From the NCBI GenBank assembly GCA_029060545.1, contig JAIDTT010000081.1:47757-95621 (forward strand): a DNA stretch of 47,865 nt, given 5' to 3'. Both the position numbers and the translations under genes were made by a program. Positions 702 through 42,030 of the stretch are shown one piece after another. Position 1 is the first letter of the stretch. Each line of letters begins with the position of its first letter. The stretch comes from Paramuribaculum sp. Its GTDB lineage: Bacteria > Bacteroidota > Bacteroidia > Bacteroidales > Muribaculaceae. The notes under the pieces are model-generated. The model was not told where the DNA came from and made no database searches. It saw nothing but the letters and a program-made list of their open reading frames with translations.

Positions 702-757
702 CAGCAATAGTTTTTGTTTTCTCCGGCTGATACCCTGCGCCGGATTGGTACAAAAAC

Positions 758-1011
758 GAAAAACGTGGGTACCTTACCATTGCTCGTCCCACAGTTAGAG
801 GCTCTGGCATGTGCCCATCTTCATAGGAAGAGCAATGTGCAGAGCCCACGCATATATGTATATACACCAATAGCCTCATATTGCCTCGCGGCAACAAGCC
901 ATCAGTAGAGATACATATCCATAAGCATCTACCATTGCTACTGCCTTGATGAAGATTTGAAACTGCCAGATTTCTAACTGTCAAGAACAGAAACGCTGAT
1001 AAACGTCTTTC
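758..1011 (-). ncRNA. Pseudoknotted 5'-leader RNA, copy A (upstream of Big2 lipoprotein)
   Basis: Read on the minus strand. P1 pairs GAAAGACG (1011-1004) with CGTTTTTC (765-758), one G-U. P2 pairs CAGTTAG (980-974) with CTAACTG (798-792). P3 pairs TCTGGCA (970-964) with TGCCAGA (809-803). P4 pairs ATCTTCAT (956-949) with ATGAAGAT (824-817). The pseudoknot pairs ATTGCTCTTCCT (836-825) with 790-779, 11 of 12 positions. Joining segments are AAA (P2/P3), GTTTCAA (P3/P4), GGGCACA (P4/P3 return) and GCCT (P3/P2 return). The variable domain inside P4 (837-948) can fold further, for example ATATGTAT with ATACATAT. The element ends 56 nt before the ATG at 701. A small hairpin (722-744, GCCGGA/TCCGGC) sits in that linker. 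Confidence 0.85.
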
Positions 1012-1101
1012 TAAAATGTCCGTGCCCGGCACGGATGCCGGTCACTCGTCGCATCCCACCCGCGTACCCGCATACACGGCTCTGCGGATGTAATGCGCTC
1101 A

Positions 1102-1133
1102 CAAATATAGCCACAAATTCCCACATGCACAAA
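1102..1133 (-). promoter_or_regulatory. Bacteroidetes-type promoter of the Big2 lipoprotein
   Basis: On the minus strand a TTTG (1133-1130) is followed after 20 bp by TATATTTG (1109-1102), the standard -33/-7 arrangement. Transcription would start near 1096. The leader then contains a strong hairpin TCCGTGC/GCACGGA (about 1019-1035) before P1 of the structured RNA. Confidence 0.75.
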
Positions 1134-1360: not shown

Positions 1361-1391
1361 TTTGTATTTTGGGATAATTGGAGTATTTTTG
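1361..1391 (+). promoter_or_regulatory. Promoter of the 433-aa secreted protein
   Basis: TTTG (1361-1364), 19 bp, TATTTTTG (1384-1391). The transcript would begin near 1397, within or just before a hairpin GCGCAA/TTGCGC (1397-1412), and runs into the structured RNA at 1428. Confidence 0.75.
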
Positions 1392-1427
1392 CAGGGCGCA
1401 AAGAGTTGCGCGTACATACATAGTTAT

Positions 1428-1648
1428 AAGAAGCGTTTCGTGCTTTATCCTTTAACAGAAAATCGCCAATTTTCAATGACAGATAAGGAAACGAGCAGAC
1501 ATCGAACGCTCATGCTTGTCGTATATCCACTCCCCGACAAGGGGATATCGATATTCGATTAGGCGTGGGAGTGGATTGTCTATTTATCTGTCAGGCGTTT
1601 GGCGATGCCTCTGTTAAGATAGACAAGAACATCATTCCACGTCTTCTT
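1428..1648 (+). ncRNA. Pseudoknotted 5'-leader RNA, copy B
   Basis: P1 pairs AAGAAGCGT (1428-1436) with ACGTCTTCTT (1639-1648), with one bulge. P2 pairs TTAACAG (1452-1458) with CTGTTAA (1611-1617). P3 pairs ATCGCCAA (1462-1469) with TTGGCGAT (1599-1606). P4 pairs TGACAGATAA (1477-1486) with TTATCTGTCA (1584-1593). The pseudoknot pairs TTGTCTAT (1576-1583) with ATAGACAA (1619-1626). Joining segments are AAA, TTTTCAA, GGCGT and GCCT. None of the stem sequences match the other copies, yet every pairing and junction is kept. The variable domain (1487-1575) holds further hairpins, for example CCACTCC with GGAGTGG. The element ends 57 nt before the ATG at 1706. Confidence 0.85.
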
Positions 1649-1705
1649 TTTTATCTAATCCCAAAATCGTCAACTCGGGAATGGAGGCGACACACAAAAA
1701 TTACT

Positions 1706-15446: not shown

Positions 15447-15477
15447 TTGATAAATAAAAAACTTTTTCCTAAATTTG
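15447..15477 (+). promoter_or_regulatory. Promoter of the 583-aa secreted protein
   Basis: TTG (15447-15449), 20 bp, TAAATTTG (15470-15477). The leader that follows contains a hairpin CCCC/GGGG (about 15500-15510) inside a longer ACAC...GTGT pairing, before the structured RNA at 15538. Confidence 0.72.
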
Positions 15478-15537: not shown

Positions 15538-15786
15538 GGAAGCGTTTGTCATACGCTTATTCTTGGCTACTTGAAATCTGGCAGTTTCTGAATCACAGTC
15601 AAGGATGGGTACACGATAGGCGCCTTTATGGGTATGGTATACCAAGTCGAGAGGACGATGACGCGTCCGCCCTCTCACAATATATCCATACAGCGTGAGG
15701 CTCCGCGTTGCTCGTTCCACTGTGATGGGCACATGCCAGAGCCTCAAGTAGCGGGATGAGCAACTGATACAGACTCTCACGCTTTT
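15538..15786 (+). ncRNA. Pseudoknotted 5'-leader RNA, copy C
   Basis: P1 pairs GGAAGCGT (15538-15545) with ACGCTTTT (15779-15786), two G-U at the end. P2 pairs CTACTTG (15567-15573) with CAAGTAG (15745-15751). P3 pairs TCTGGCA (15577-15583) with TGCCAGA (15734-15740). P4 pairs ATCACAGT (15592-15599) with ACTGTGAT (15719-15726). The pseudoknot pairs GTTGCTCGTTCC (15707-15718) with GGGATGAGCAAC (15753-15764), 12 bp with two wobbles. Joining segments are AAA, GTTTCTGA, GGGCACA and GCCT. The variable domain (15600-15706) contains GTATGG/CCATAC and GAGAGG/CCTCTC helices. The element ends 52 nt before the ATG at 15839, and a GCCC/GGGC hairpin (15796-15822) sits in the linker. Confidence 0.87.
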
Positions 15787-15838
15787 CTTGTTTTGGCCCG
15801 AATCCGAGGAGTCTATAAGGGCGCAAAAAATCAATAAT

Positions 15839-37393: not shown

Positions 37394-39061
37394 ATGGAAG
37401 AAAACCCTAAAGGTGTGGATCTGCTTTTTGAAACCTCGTGGGAGGTATGTAACAAAGTAGGTGGTATCTACACAGTACTCTCAACCAAAGCCAAGACTCT
37501 CCAGAATCTCTATAAAGATAAAGTGATATTCGTCGGCCCCGACGTATGGACTGCCGACAAGCCGGCTCCCGACTTCGCGGAATCACCCACCATTCTCCGT
37601 AAGTGGGTATCAAATCTCGATCTGCCTTACGGCATCGAGGTGCGTGTAGGTCGCTGGCAGATTCCCGGCAAGCCTATTGCAGTACTTGTGAAGTTCGACG
37701 GACTTTACGCCGTGAAGAATGAACTCTATGGTCGTATGTGGGATGCTTTCGGTGTGGATTCGCTCCATGCCTACGGCGACTACGACGAAGCATGCGCTTT
37801 CAGCCACGCTGCCGGTATTGTGATCGAAAGTCTTTATCGTTTTATGGGAGGCGAGAAACTCAACACCATCGCCCACTTCGATGAGTGGACCACCGGTATG
37901 GGGCTTCTCTATACGCGCCTGAATATGCCGGAAGTTGCCACGGTATTTACCACCCACGCTACCTCTATCGGCCGCAGTATATGTGGCAATGGCAAAGATC
38001 TTTATCGTTATCTTCCTTACTACAACGGCGACCAGATGGCCGGTGAGCTCAATATGGAGTCGAAGCACTCGCTTGAGAAAGCTGCCGCGCTCAATGCCGA
38101 CTGCTTCACCACGGTGAGCGACGTCACCGCCCGCGAATGTGAGCAACTGCTCGGCCGCAAGCCCGACGTGGTCACACCCAACGGCTTCGAGCCTAACTTT
38201 GTCCCGGCTCGCACCCGTTACAACACTTGCCGTATGGCAGCCCGCAAGGAACTCCTTGAGGTAGCTTCCGCCCTTACCGGCAAGCAGTATCCCGAAGATA
38301 CGTTCCTCGTATGCACATCAGGTCGTGCCGAGTATCGCAACAAAGGCCTCGACCTCTTCCTTGATGCAGCCGCCACTTTGCAGCGCATTCACCCCGGCCG
38401 TCAGACTATCGCGTTCGTGATGGTCCCGGCATGGTGCGTAGGTCCGCGTGCCGACCTACGGAAGGCACTTACCGAAAAGAATCATACGCAGGCGTTACCA
38501 GAGCCGGTCATCACTCACTGCCTCGGCAATACGGATTATGATCCGGTGCTCGGCCGTATTCGTGGACTCGGCATCTCTAATTCCGCTCAGAGTGAGGTCG
38601 ACGTGATATTCGTGCCCTGCTACCTCAATGGTATGGACGGTGTGTTCACGCTCTCATACTATCAGTTACTCATCGGCATGGATGCCACCGTATTCCCGTC
38701 CTACTACGAGCCTTGGGGATATACTCCGCTTGAGAGCGTCGCATTCGGCGTACCCACCATCACCACCTCTCTTTCCGGCTTCGGCCAGTGGGTGGAAAGC
38801 AATTTCGAAAATGATTTCTCGGCTTCGGGTGTATTCGTCGCTGACCGTACCGATACCAATTATTGGGAAGTGGTCGACGGCATCTCCCGTTCACTCAAAT
38901 TCCTGAGCAGCGCCGATCGTTCTACTACCGAAAAGATATCGAAGAGTGCGTTCCATACAGCTGCGCAGGCCAACTGGTCGTACTTCATCGACTATTATAT
39001 TAAGGCTTACGATATCGCCCTCACCAACGAGGAAAAGCGTAATGCCGGTACCGACAAGTGA
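37394..39061 (+). CDS. GT3-type glycogen synthase
   Basis: The 555-aa protein starts [32 protein letters not shown], the N-terminal signature of eukaryote-like GT3 glycogen synthases rather than bacterial GlgA (GT5). Other family points are [33 protein letters not shown] and the C-terminal donor-site motif [15 protein letters not shown] with the catalytic glutamate. It builds alpha-1,4-glucan from a nucleotide-glucose donor. It overlaps or abuts the phosphorylase gene region, so both are in one operon: storage and mobilisation together. The symbol glgA is left out because that name usually denotes the GT5 enzyme. Confidence 0.92.
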
Positions 39062-39090
39062 ATAATATTTTAATACAAACTAAAATCAAT

Positions 39091-41646
39091 ATGAAGATTA
39101 AAGTTAGTCAGGCCAACGCGCCTATAATGCATGAGGCTACCGTGATAGCCGAACTGCCCGCTTCGCTCCAGCCCCTGTGGGAGCTTGCCCATAATCTCTG
39201 GTGGGTATGGAACAGCGACGCAAAATCTCTCTTCCGCGACATTCACCCCGATCTGTGGCGCTCCACAGGCGAAAATCCCGTGATGGTGCTCCAGCGCATA
39301 TCCTCAGAGCGTCTCAAGGCGATCATGAAGGATGCCGATATGATGGAACGCATCAATCAGGTATATGCCGACTTCAAGGAATATATGAGCAAGCCGATGC
39401 GCAAGGATGTACCTTCGGTATCTTACTTCTCTATGGAATACGGTCTCTGCAACTGTCTGAAGATCTATTCCGGTGGTCTCGGCGTGCTCGCCGGCGACTA
39501 TATCAAGGAAGCATCCGACAGCTGTGTCGATATGACTGCCGTCGGCTTCCTCTATCGTTACGGTTACTTTACTCAGTCGCTTTCCGTCGACGGCCATCAG
39601 GTAGCCAACTACGAGCCTCAGAACTTCAACCAGCTCCCCATCGAGCAGGTACTTGATGAGAATAATCAGCCGATGATACTCGAAGTGCCCTATCCCGGCC
39701 GTATCATCTACTCCCACGTATGGCGCGTGAATGTAGGCCGTATGAAGCTCTATCTGCTCGATACCGACTTCGACCTCAACAGCGAATACGACCGCTGCAT
39801 TACCCACAAGCTTTACGGCGGTGACTGGGAAAATCGTCTCAAGCAGGAATACCTCCTCGGTATCGGCGGTGTGCTCATGCTCAAGAAACTCGGTGTGAAT
39901 TCCACCATCTATCACTGCAACGAAGGTCATGCAGCTCTGCTCAACCTCCAGCGCCTCGTCGACTTCGTTGAGGAGAAACACCTCGCATTCCCTGCCGCTC
40001 TCGAAATGGTGCGCAGCTCTTCGCTCTACACCGTTCATACCCCCGTGCCCGCAGGCCACGACTACTTCGACGAAGACCTCTTCGGCAAGTATCTCCACGA
40101 GTTCCCCGCACGTTTGGGCATCTCCTGGAGCGACCTCATGAACATGGGCCGTGAGAATCCCGATACTAACGAACGCTTCTCCATGAGCGTATTCGCCCTC
40201 AACACCTGTCAGGAAGCCAACGGCGTTAGCTGGCTCCACGGCGAAGTGTCGAAGAAGATGTTTGCCGGAATCTGGAAAGGCTACTCCTGGGAAGAAAGCC
40301 ATGTTGGCTACGTGACCAACGGTGTCCACATGCCCACCTGGGCCGCTTCCGAGTGGAAAAAATACTATGCAGAGAAGCTCGGCAAGGAAATGTTCACTCA
40401 CCAGAGCGATCCCAAATACTGGGCTAAGATTTTCGATGCTCCCGACGAAGAGATCTGGGAAATGCGCATGACGATGAAAAACAAATTCATCAACTTCCTC
40501 AAGCGCGATTTCAAGGAGAAATGGTTGGCCAATCAGGGCGATCCCTCCGCTGTGATGAATATCGTGGAGAAGATCAACCCCAACGCCCTCATCATCGGCT
40601 TTGCCCGCCGCTTCGCAACATATAAGCGCGCACACCTCCTCTTCACCGACCTCGACCGTCTCGCCAAGATCGTCAACAACGAGCAGTTCCCCGTGCAGTT
40701 CGTATTCTCCGGCAAGGCTCACCCCGCCGATGGCGCAGGTCAGGGTCTTATCAAGCGCATCATTGAGATCTCCCGTATGCCCCAGTTCCTCGGCAAGATC
40801 ATCTTCCTTGAGGACTACAATATGGTAGTGGCCAAGCGCCTTGTCACCGGTGTCGACATCTGGCTCAACACACCTACCCGTCCTCTCGAGGCTTCCGGTA
40901 CATCCGGCGAGAAGGCTGAGATGAATGGTGTGCTCAACTTCTCCGTGCTCGACGGCTGGTGGTACGAAGGCTATAAGTTCGACGAGAAAGCCGGTTGGGC
41001 TCTCACCGACAAGCGTACCTACACCGATCAGGGTATGCAGGACCGTCTCGACGCAGCCACCATCTACCAGATGCTCGAAAACGAGATCATTCCTCTCTAT
41101 TTCGCCAAGAACTCCAAAGGCTATTCGCCCGAATGGATTCAGTATATCAAGGGCTCCATCGGTCATATCGCTCCCCACTTTACCATGCAGCGCATGATCG
41201 AGGACTACATCCAGCGCTTCTACGATCCCGAAGCCAAGCGCTTCAATAAGCTCGCTGCCAACGACTACGCTCTCGCCAAAGAGATCGTGGCTTGGAAAGA
41301 GCAGGTTGTCGATGCCTGGGACGGCGTGAAAGTACTCGAATTCAATATCGAAGGTCCCGCTCAGTCCGCATCCGGTAAGGACTACAATGTTGAAGCCGTG
41401 ATCGATACCAACGGCCTCGGCCGTAGCCTCGGCCTCGAGTACGTTGCCTACCGCGTGGAAGACGGTCAGGAACACCTCGCTGAAGTTAAGCCCTTCACCG
41501 TAGTATCGGAGAAGGATGGTGTGATCAAATACGAGCTCCACGAGACCGTGCAGGACGCCGGCGTCTACCGCTATGGCTTCCGCCTCTATCCCGCCAGCGA
41601 CAAGCTGCCCCATCGTCAGGACTTCGCTTACGTTCGTTGGATCTAA
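39091..41646 (+). CDS. glgP: Alpha-glucan phosphorylase (GT35)
   Basis: The 851-aa enzyme releases glucose 1-phosphate from glycogen or maltodextrin. It begins [21 protein letters not shown], then [20 protein letters not shown], the start of the DUF3417-type short phosphorylase subgroup. Further motifs are [32 protein letters not shown]-like segment, [24 protein letters not shown] and the PLP-lysine region [14 protein letters not shown]. The start at 39091 matches the family; an upstream in-frame start at 39058 overlaps the synthase stop. The gene is visibly rich in preferred C/G-ending codons, implying high expression. Confidence 0.94.
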
Positions 41647-41672
41647 TCTCCGACGCAACGATCCATAATGTC

Positions 41673-41737: not shown

Positions 41738-41768
41738 ATTGTCAGTTAATAAATAATTGCTACATTTG
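41738..41768 (+). promoter_or_regulatory. Promoter of the AT-rich small secreted-protein cassette
   Basis: ATTG (41738-41741), 19 bp, TACATTTG (41761-41768). The short leader carries a hairpin TGCTGA/TCAGCA (about 41772-41791) before the structured RNA at 41808. Confidence 0.72.
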
Positions 41769-41807
41769 CGGTGCTGAACCGCGGATCAGCAGACATATTG
41801 TATTTTA

Positions 41808-41975
41808 AGAAGCGTTTTGCTTATCTTGCTAAAGAAAACCTGAGAAATTTTCAACAAGAGCAACGGATAACAAGACGGTTCTCACGCTATAGCGTGGGCT
41901 ACTGTTTTCATATCTTGCTCTTAAGGTTTTCTCAGGACCGTCTTTAGGGATATGGCAAAGTCAGTCCACGTTTCT
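41808..41975 (+). ncRNA. Pseudoknotted 5'-leader RNA, copy D (shortest)
   Basis: P1 pairs AGAAGCGT (41808-41815) with ACGTTTCT (41968-41975), one G-U. P2 pairs CTAAAGA (41829-41835) with TCTTTAG (41941-41947). P3 pairs CCTGAGAA (41839-41846) with TTCTCAGG (41929-41936). P4 pairs AAGAGCAA (41856-41863) with TTGCTCTT (41915-41922). The pseudoknot pairs CATATC (41909-41914) with GATATG (41949-41954). Joining segments are AAA, ATTTTCAAC, AAGGTT and ACCG. The variable domain is only 45 nt and is largely one hairpin CACGCTATAGCGTG (41883-41896). The element ends 55 nt before the ATG at 42031; a GGTC/GACC hairpin (41991-42010) sits in the linker. This minimal copy best defines the core. Confidence 0.86.
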
Positions 41976-42030
41976 GTTATATTTATTACCGGTCGAAGGG
42001 CTGTAAGACCACCCAAAATCATTTTATCAA

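Follow-up and report, generated by a model that had tools for sequence, protein, structure and literature searches.

Riboswitches and attenuators are structured 5' leaders that lie between a promoter and a gene and contain a terminator-like stem and a U-tract. In the phi29 pRNA, mutually complementary loops, free in sequence as long as pairing is kept, join separate molecules. In the exoribonuclease-resistant RNAs of viruses, a ring-like pseudoknot forms around the 5' end of the structure. The leader RNA described here has the layout of riboswitches and attenuators, with a ligand and an antiterminator that are only putative. Unlike riboswitches, it has two long helices that change sequence between near-identical copies, and we know of no riboswitch with such changes. 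Set beside pRNA by description (the multimeric RNAs GOLLD, ROOL and OLE we would group with pRNA in this comparison), it has paired loops about 30–40 nt long, and it precedes a gene. With the exoribonuclease-resistant RNAs it shares a ring-like pseudoknot, in its case a predicted double-stranded loop–loop ring. We propose, with moderate confidence and from sequence analysis, that it represents a Bacteroidales family of cis-acting 5'-leader RNAs outside Rfam, most probably transcription attenuators: the leader RNA may decide whether the downstream gene is transcribed.

The locus came to attention through a preliminary description of the window, by which we mean the whole 47,865-nt stretch of DNA that was analysed. 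It claimed a family of pseudoknotted 5'-leader RNAs, selected for structure and apparently undescribed, and our results support it on each of these points. Rfam 15 gave 0 matches to the window at E up to 1. At 15 loci with copies, Rfam gave three matches, none overlapping the element: 5S rRNA (L202), and rli51 (L160) and Acido-Lenti-1 (L064), the latter two below cut-offs. No such RNA is described in the open-access literature that was searched; an earlier report elsewhere is possible. The candidate structured RNAs of Bacteroidetes reported by Weinberg et al. 2010 (PMC2864571; Bacteroidales-1, Bacteroides-1, Bacteroides-2, GUCCY-hairpin and others) are like the leader in phylum or order, and differ from it in that the window is without a match to any Rfam model. 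The Rfam search does not extend to Bacteroides-2 and GUCCY-hairpin, which are listed in the table of that paper without an Rfam number. A term search of PMC11109978 gave none of five Bacteroidales-related names.

Four copies, here called A to D, are present in the window where the preliminary description had placed them. Their parts, in window coordinates, are as follows; paired strands are separated by a slash.

15470..15477, plus strand: copy C, −7 box TAAATTTG, fits TAnnTTTG
15540..15558, plus: copy C, hairpin H0 (AAGCGT/ACGCTT), covarying in 84 selected copies
15560..15565, plus: copy C, S1 5' strand, covarying
15566..15574, plus: copy C, P2 5' strand, hypervariable
15577..15583, plus: copy C, P3 5' strand
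15592..15599, plus: copy C, P4 5' strand, hypervariable
15600..15605, plus: copy C, S1 3' strand
15606..15692, plus: copy C, conserved joint and variable hairpin P7, assigned by eye
15693..15699, plus: copy C, P6 5' strand GCGTGAG, paired in 96 R1 matches (see below)
15708..15718, plus: copy C, P5 5' strand (pseudoknot helix of the preliminary description)
15719..15726, plus: copy C, P4 3' strand
15734..15740, plus: copy C, P3 3' strand
15744..15752, plus: copy C, P2 3' strand (previously a 7-nt strand, 15745–15751)
15753..15763, plus: copy C, P5 3' strand
15776..15782, plus: copy C, P6 3' strand CTCACGC
15783..15795, plus: copy C, U-tract adjoining P6, intrinsic-terminator-like
15797..15821, plus: copy C, possible small hairpin with GGAG in the loop
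15839..17590, plus: gene 3' of copy C, signal-peptide-like start, without a Pfam match
751..1109, minus: copy A leader, from −7 box (1102–1109) to U-tract (751–763)
992–1007, minus: copy A, H0
981–987/944–949, minus: copy A, S1
974–980/792–798, minus: copy A, P2
964–970/803–809, minus: copy A, P3
949–956/817–824, minus: copy A, P4
826–835/780–789, minus: copy A, P5
845–851/764–769, minus: copy A, P6
723–743, minus: copy A, small hairpin
701, minus: copy A, gene start, product with a Big_2 domain
1384..1654, plus: copy B leader, from −7 box (1384–1391) to U-tract (1642–1654)
1431–1445, plus: copy B, H0
1443–1449/1482–1488, plus: copy B, S1 (overlaps P4)
1452–1458/1611–1617, plus: copy B, P2
1462–1469/1599–1606, plus: copy B, P3
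1477–1486/1584–1593, plus: copy B, P4
1576–1583/1619–1626, plus: copy B, P5
1563–1568/1637–1641, plus: copy B, P6
1669–1691, plus: copy B, small hairpin
1706, plus: copy B, gene start
41761..41984, plus: copy D leader, from −7 box (41761–41768) to U-tract (41971–41984)
41810–41822, plus: copy D, H0
41823–41828/41855–41860, plus: copy D, S1 (overlaps P4)
41829–41835/41941–41947, plus: copy D, P2
41839–41847/41928–41936, plus: copy D, P3
41855–41863/41915–41922, plus: copy D, P4
41909–41914/41949–41954, plus: copy D, P5
41893–41897/41966–41970, plus: copy D, P6
41991–42010, plus: copy D, small hairpin
42031, plus: copy D, gene start

The P2 words previously read as CAGTTAG (A), TTAACAG (B), CTACTTG (C) and CTAAAGA (D) each have their exact complement, and P3, P4 and the pseudoknot helix (our P5) occur in all four copies. 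The junction geometry holds as well: the P5 5' strand adjoins the P4 3' strand, and the P5 3' strand begins one base past the previously delimited P2 3' strand. Copy A fits this geometry only when one mismatch and a terminal G-U are allowed in its P5. In copy D (L026) the helices were assigned by eye; the automatic parse chose others, including a helix P1 discussed below. Copies A and B are divergent neighbours with promoter boxes about 275 nt apart.

In 5' to 3' order, the leader consists of H0; the S1 5' strand; the 5' strands of P2, P3 and P4; the S1 3' strand; a conserved joint; and hairpin P7, variable by eye in both length and sequence. Then come the 5' strands of P6 and P5; the 3' strands of P4, P3 and P2; the 3' strands of P5 and P6; and the U-tract, followed in many copies by a small hairpin, and then the start codon. 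S1 and P5 are thus hairpins whose loops pair mutually through P2, P3 and P4. Helix S1 was missing from the preliminary description, and it turns S1, P2, P5 and P4 into a four-way junction. New as well are the U-tract, the promoter box farther upstream, and a small G-rich hairpin ahead of the start codon. Since S1 and P4 overlap in copies B and D, these helices may be alternatives there. The conserved joints are strand-specific.

The pairing of P2, P3 and P4 is beyond chance. In 98 of 111 copies, the best nested triple scored above all 111 mismatched 5'/3' controls. A second set of 112 copies was chosen by a 3' pattern in which the P3 3' strand is mostly fixed and the variable parts of P2 and P4 are free; it overlaps the first (L099/L209, L104/L198 and L108/L216) and includes two putatively viral contigs. 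Here the triple outscored 95% of the 336 mismatched controls in 103 of the 112, and exceeded the highest of the 336 in only 25. With P3 in register, P2 reached at least 7 bp in 98 of the 112, and P4 in 100. A few copies do not fit, among them L126 and L130 (triple scores 34 and 30); together with L038 these two are divergent or degenerate, with odd P2–P4 pairing or P3 class, and are possibly decaying.

Covariation was assessed in two alignments. The first comprises 96 matches to R1, a covariance model of the 3' half only (P5 and P6), built from ten aligned copies of the genome that contains the window; further copies from this genome were obtained by BLAST of copy C. In the 96 matches, an alignment fitted to P5 and P6 themselves, 97.1% of cells are paired and 12 of 18 pairs show double-sided changes, a figure that 0 of 500 shuffles attained. 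P5 is 95.4% paired, with nine of 11 pairs doubly changed, and P6 99.6%, with three of seven. The second alignment, A3, holds 84 full-length copies from the 112, admitted if whole, free of N, not near-identical to another, with a triple score of at least 50, a recognizable P3 and a P2 of at least 9 bp. S1 is 90.9% paired in A3, with double-sided changes in four of four counted pairs, and H0 97.3%, with two of four; P2 is doubly changed at seven of nine pairs. P2 is also 100% paired there, a figure biased by the admission rule, and P4, whose columns are badly aligned, is 49.4% paired in the main block; the fair measures of both are the mismatch controls and the counts of 98 and 100 in 112. When extended to more copies, the proposed structure thus shows strong covariation in P2, S1, P5 and P6 and clear complementarity in P4: the conserved fold and compensatory changes of a cis-acting leader RNA.

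One helix of the preliminary description gained little support. P1 (AAGCGT with ACGCTT), said to enclose the whole structure, can be written but is unsupported as a conserved helix. It is 95.1% paired across the 84 sequences, with double-sided changes in just one of seven pairs, and is weak in most types. In five sequences H0 has changed from G-C to A-U, and all five are unpaired at the matching position of P1. Its strands are better explained by H0 at the 5' end and P6 at the 3' end. P1 is longest in the type of copy D; there and in L032 an 8-bp version can be drawn, which the automatic parse picked, and P1 is possibly an alternative state. Helix P8 (GAGGC with GCCTC), a potential rival of P3 and P6, was likewise unsupported: scores were 17.3 for cognate strands, 17.2 within the same P3 class and 15.8 with another class, and the 5' strands of one class pair better with the 3' strands of another. 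As candidate antiterminators, then, P1 is pairable and hardly covaries, and P8 failed its test.

The position of the element bears out the claim that it is a 5' leader. TAnnTTTG, the −7 box consensus given in PMC7366714, is found in the 150 nt that precede H0 in 156 of 180 copies, compared with 9.2% of random windows and 20 of 180 copies on the opposite strand; most commonly it ends 40–60 nt before H0 (77 copies). At the other end, 150 of 165 anchorable copies have at least six T within the 9 nt after P6 (background, 2.4%), the terminator-like stem and U-tract expected of an attenuator. P6 does not form a compact terminator hairpin, as about 70–95 nt of structure lie inside it. In 198 of 209 copies an ATG frame of 50 codons or more begins no farther than 250 nt after P6, and in 164 of 209 it begins 30–90 nt after it (controls: divergent, 13 of 211; same-strand, 39 of 205). 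The element therefore lies between promoter and start codon, in the same orientation as the gene. A −7 box is absent from all 164 segments that separate U-tract and start codon.

Promoter, structured domain, GC-rich stem, U-tract and gene follow one another in the sequence in the layout of transcription attenuation. Termination itself, the direction of the switch, any ligand, and pairing within one molecule as opposed to between molecules are our inferences. Transcription would be driven by the −7 box, which most often ends 40–60 nt before H0, and the nascent RNA would fold hairpin S1, whose loop would present the 5' strands of P2, P3 and P4. The variable hairpin P7 would form next, and the 3' domain last, with P6 around hairpin P5 and the P5 loop presenting the 3' strands of P4, P3 and P2. 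The S1 and P5 loops would then pair, giving a loop–loop ring closed at the four-way junction. Because the U-tract comes straight after P6 and no second −7 box follows, the gene 30–90 nt on seems to depend on read-through; timely formation of the ring would set how often the polymerase stops. A ligand, a protein or an RNA might help or hinder the ring, perhaps by way of the conserved joints. Dedicated NusG-paralogue antiterminators were considered and rejected: the window's own genome (98.55% complete) has one NusG match and 17 strong leaders, so there is no dedicated antiterminator of this type per leader there.

The same region can be read differently. Of 164 leaders, 102 carry a GGAG-like word in the segment from U-tract to start codon (26.6 expected), and 71 carry it inside a hairpin loop (mononucleotide shuffles predict 10.4). 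This G-rich hairpin might just as well serve translational control, and the leader as a whole might act on translation or mRNA stability, the ring and the G-rich hairpin gating ribosomes, or the ring blocking decay, with the U-tract as a protein-binding site or spacer. The short, narrow distance to the start codon agrees with this. A GC-rich stem with a U-tract immediately behind it, in 150 of 165 copies, is terminator-like, though, and is needless for control of translation; we consider this alternative rather unlikely, and prefer attenuation.

The genes behind the leader are very mixed. After removal of near-duplicates, 186 of 198 downstream frames are distinct. Of 164 eligible proteins, 150 were searched against Pfam, with long sequences truncated to 350 residues, and 64 families were found in all. 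Among the 25 of 64 that were listed, BspA-type leucine-rich repeats (LRR_5, in 21 proteins) and LRR_8 (in 15) are the commonest; the other families listed occur in at most three proteins each. Those listed include outer-membrane barrels, lipocalin-like proteins, CsgG, glycosyltransferases, DNA methylases and LytTR. With so mixed a set, a single metabolite signal is not obvious, and a one-pathway regulon was not seen in the 150 proteins. By a crude rule, more than half of the downstream genes apparently encode exported proteins (96 of 163, compared with 179 of 660 control frames, some of which are possibly not genes). The mixture of genes would suit a free-standing, trans-acting RNA that ends at the U-tract and leaves the gene to leaky read-through, as would the leader's own promoter box and terminator-like end. 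Such an RNA would not account for the narrow spacing of gene starts (164 of 209), the missing second promoter box (0 of 164) or the enrichment of seemingly exported products, and we think it quite improbable.

The leader is found in Bacteroidales, which are common gut bacteria, and is widespread in one family of them. The strong R1 matches within the window fall at exactly the four named spots. The genome as a whole (2.1 Mb) has 17 strong R1 places (E up to 1.1e-8), five weaker ones (E 1e-4 to 2e-3) and two more at E up to 5. The window is about 2% of genome length, yet holds four of the 17 strong copies. The 3' domain is nearly symmetric, and R1 also matches the reverse strand of many copies; such shadows are excluded from the counts. 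At E up to 0.01, R1 matched 44 of 61 relatives: 37 of 37 in the same family, some weakly, and seven of the 24 from elsewhere in the order. With the threshold set at E up to 1e-6, and with the own genome counted throughout, it had matches in 123 of 136 genomes of the family (Muribaculaceae), with 20 of 20 genera represented, in 45 of 295 in an order sample and in four of 345 in a phylum sample; searches over more than 40 genomes ran under stricter filters. Two of the phylum-sample matches lie outside the order (G657, E 7.5e-7; G660, E 1.2e-7) and are model matches only. Distant copies are under-counted, because R1 represents only the 3' half of ten copies from one genome. In most tested genomes of one family, then, the leader is present, and it stands before many genes. 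A scan of named genomes with the 3' pattern found at least 117 stretches. One match, L193, comes from a cultured strain, Duncaniella muris DSM 103720; the parse of its P2 was weak. The 80 matches listed include the labels Muribaculaceae, Duncaniella, Muribaculum, Prevotella, Segatella copri, Alloprevotella, Paludibacteraceae and Salinivirgaceae; the few listed with labels outside Bacteroidales may be binning errors.

Two IMG/VR contigs of putative viral origin, L256 (574–605) and L257 (11456–11487), also match the 3' pattern; the genes after their copies encode EF-Tu-type GTPase domains in one case and PAPS-reductase and DUF4007-like domains in the other. A phage or plasmid origin was considered and set aside: copy C is without a match among 50,697 phage and 72,556 plasmid records. 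That result also counts against a mobile or recombining module that acts at the level of DNA, folds as single-stranded DNA and is copied before genes. The many copies per genome, the mixed genes and the P2/P4 words common to diverged scaffolds (L223/L251, below), which suggest an exchange of pieces, would fit such a module. The promoter box and U-tract lie on the gene strand, however, and the conserved joints are strand-specific, and we rate it as very improbable.

The most striking property of the leader goes beyond anything in the preliminary description: P2 and P4 change on a scaffold that is nearly constant. Paired sequence is expected to change slowly; contrary to this, P2 and P4 have been rewritten on both strands in several near-identical copies. 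Both helices are nearly strictly Watson–Crick, with G-U in 29 of 939 pairs of P2 and 31 of 974 of P4, counts that the helix scoring itself pushes down; P5, in contrast, has many G-U pairs. Their identity is hardly tied to likeness elsewhere in the copies. Between copies with 60–70% core identity (2,243 pairs) it is 0.49 for P2 and 0.44 for P4, and at 90–99% (84 pairs) 0.57 and 0.51; over the same two bins P3 rises from 0.72 to 0.99, and P7 from 0.27 to 0.62. At mainly free positions, pairs with core identity of at least 90% and unrelated genes (49 pairs) have identities of 0.27 in P2 and 0.36 in P4, about equal to those of distant pairs (0.32 and 0.30; 6,744 pairs), and in none of the 49 are both words alike.

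Nine hand-picked pairs of copies were compared in detail. The clearest, L141/L162, precede closely related genes in separate assemblies, and differ at 14 of 36 positions in P2/P4 and at seven of 277 elsewhere (p = 3.6e-10). The corresponding differences are 21 of 36 and 25 of 238 for L127/L128; 13 of 36 and 16 of 237 for L106/L121, and 17 of 36 and 28 of 249 for L104/L101, each pair from one genome; 10 of 36 and 17 of 207 for L027/L028 (L028 is copy B of the window); and eight of 36 and 24 of 248 for L091/L104 (p = 0.043). The excess is absent in L106/L104 (p = 0.38) and L100/L113 (p = 0.1). L223/L251 is the reverse case: its P2/P4 words are identical and 122 of 302 other positions differ, so an exchange of words among scaffolds is possible. 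Copies in front of homologues from different genomes sometimes retain their words as well (L091/L093, L169/L208 and L085/L102).

Since P2 and P4 differ between near-identical copies and yet stay paired, their words have been replaced in matched pairs. This suggests either strong selection for pairing that is distinct in each copy, or that matched strands have been swapped repeatedly among copies; selected point changes and patch exchange are each possible. Separately, the P2 words ACACTCTGA, ACGCATAGA and ACGTTCTGA recur across differently labelled genera (163 copies). Identical P2 cores occur in 126 copy pairs, compared with 52 expected from composition, a recurrence inflated by duplicate records (e.g. 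L099/L209 and L104/L198). Shared ancestry is the only explanation that we offer for it.

The turnover of P2 and P4 would also be explained if they were self-recognition barcodes, by which a leader pairs with itself or with the transcripts of its own gene, and which selection diversifies against cross-pairing. By analogy with pRNA, the contacts between transcripts would be homotypic loop–loop contacts; pairing within and pairing between molecules look the same in sequence. If true, this would be RNA-level sorting of self from non-self among the mRNAs of bacteria. Tests for avoidance of shared words within genomes (orthogonality) gave no sign of it, being level or without power. Where two copies had their P3 word in common, they also had a near-identical P2 or P4 word in 0.111 of 45 within-genome pairs, compared with 0.106 of 737 between-genome pairs. 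Both words were common to 0 of 302 within-genome pairs and 13 of 4951 between-genome pairs, with fewer than one expected among the 302 at the between-genome rate. We therefore treat barcodes as a minority reading, and a doubtful one, and retain attenuation by a ring formed within the leader as the more probable.

A last observation concerns the region upstream of copy D, where an 862-codon plus-strand frame (39058–41646) is overlaid by a minus-strand open frame of 784 codons (39304–41658).
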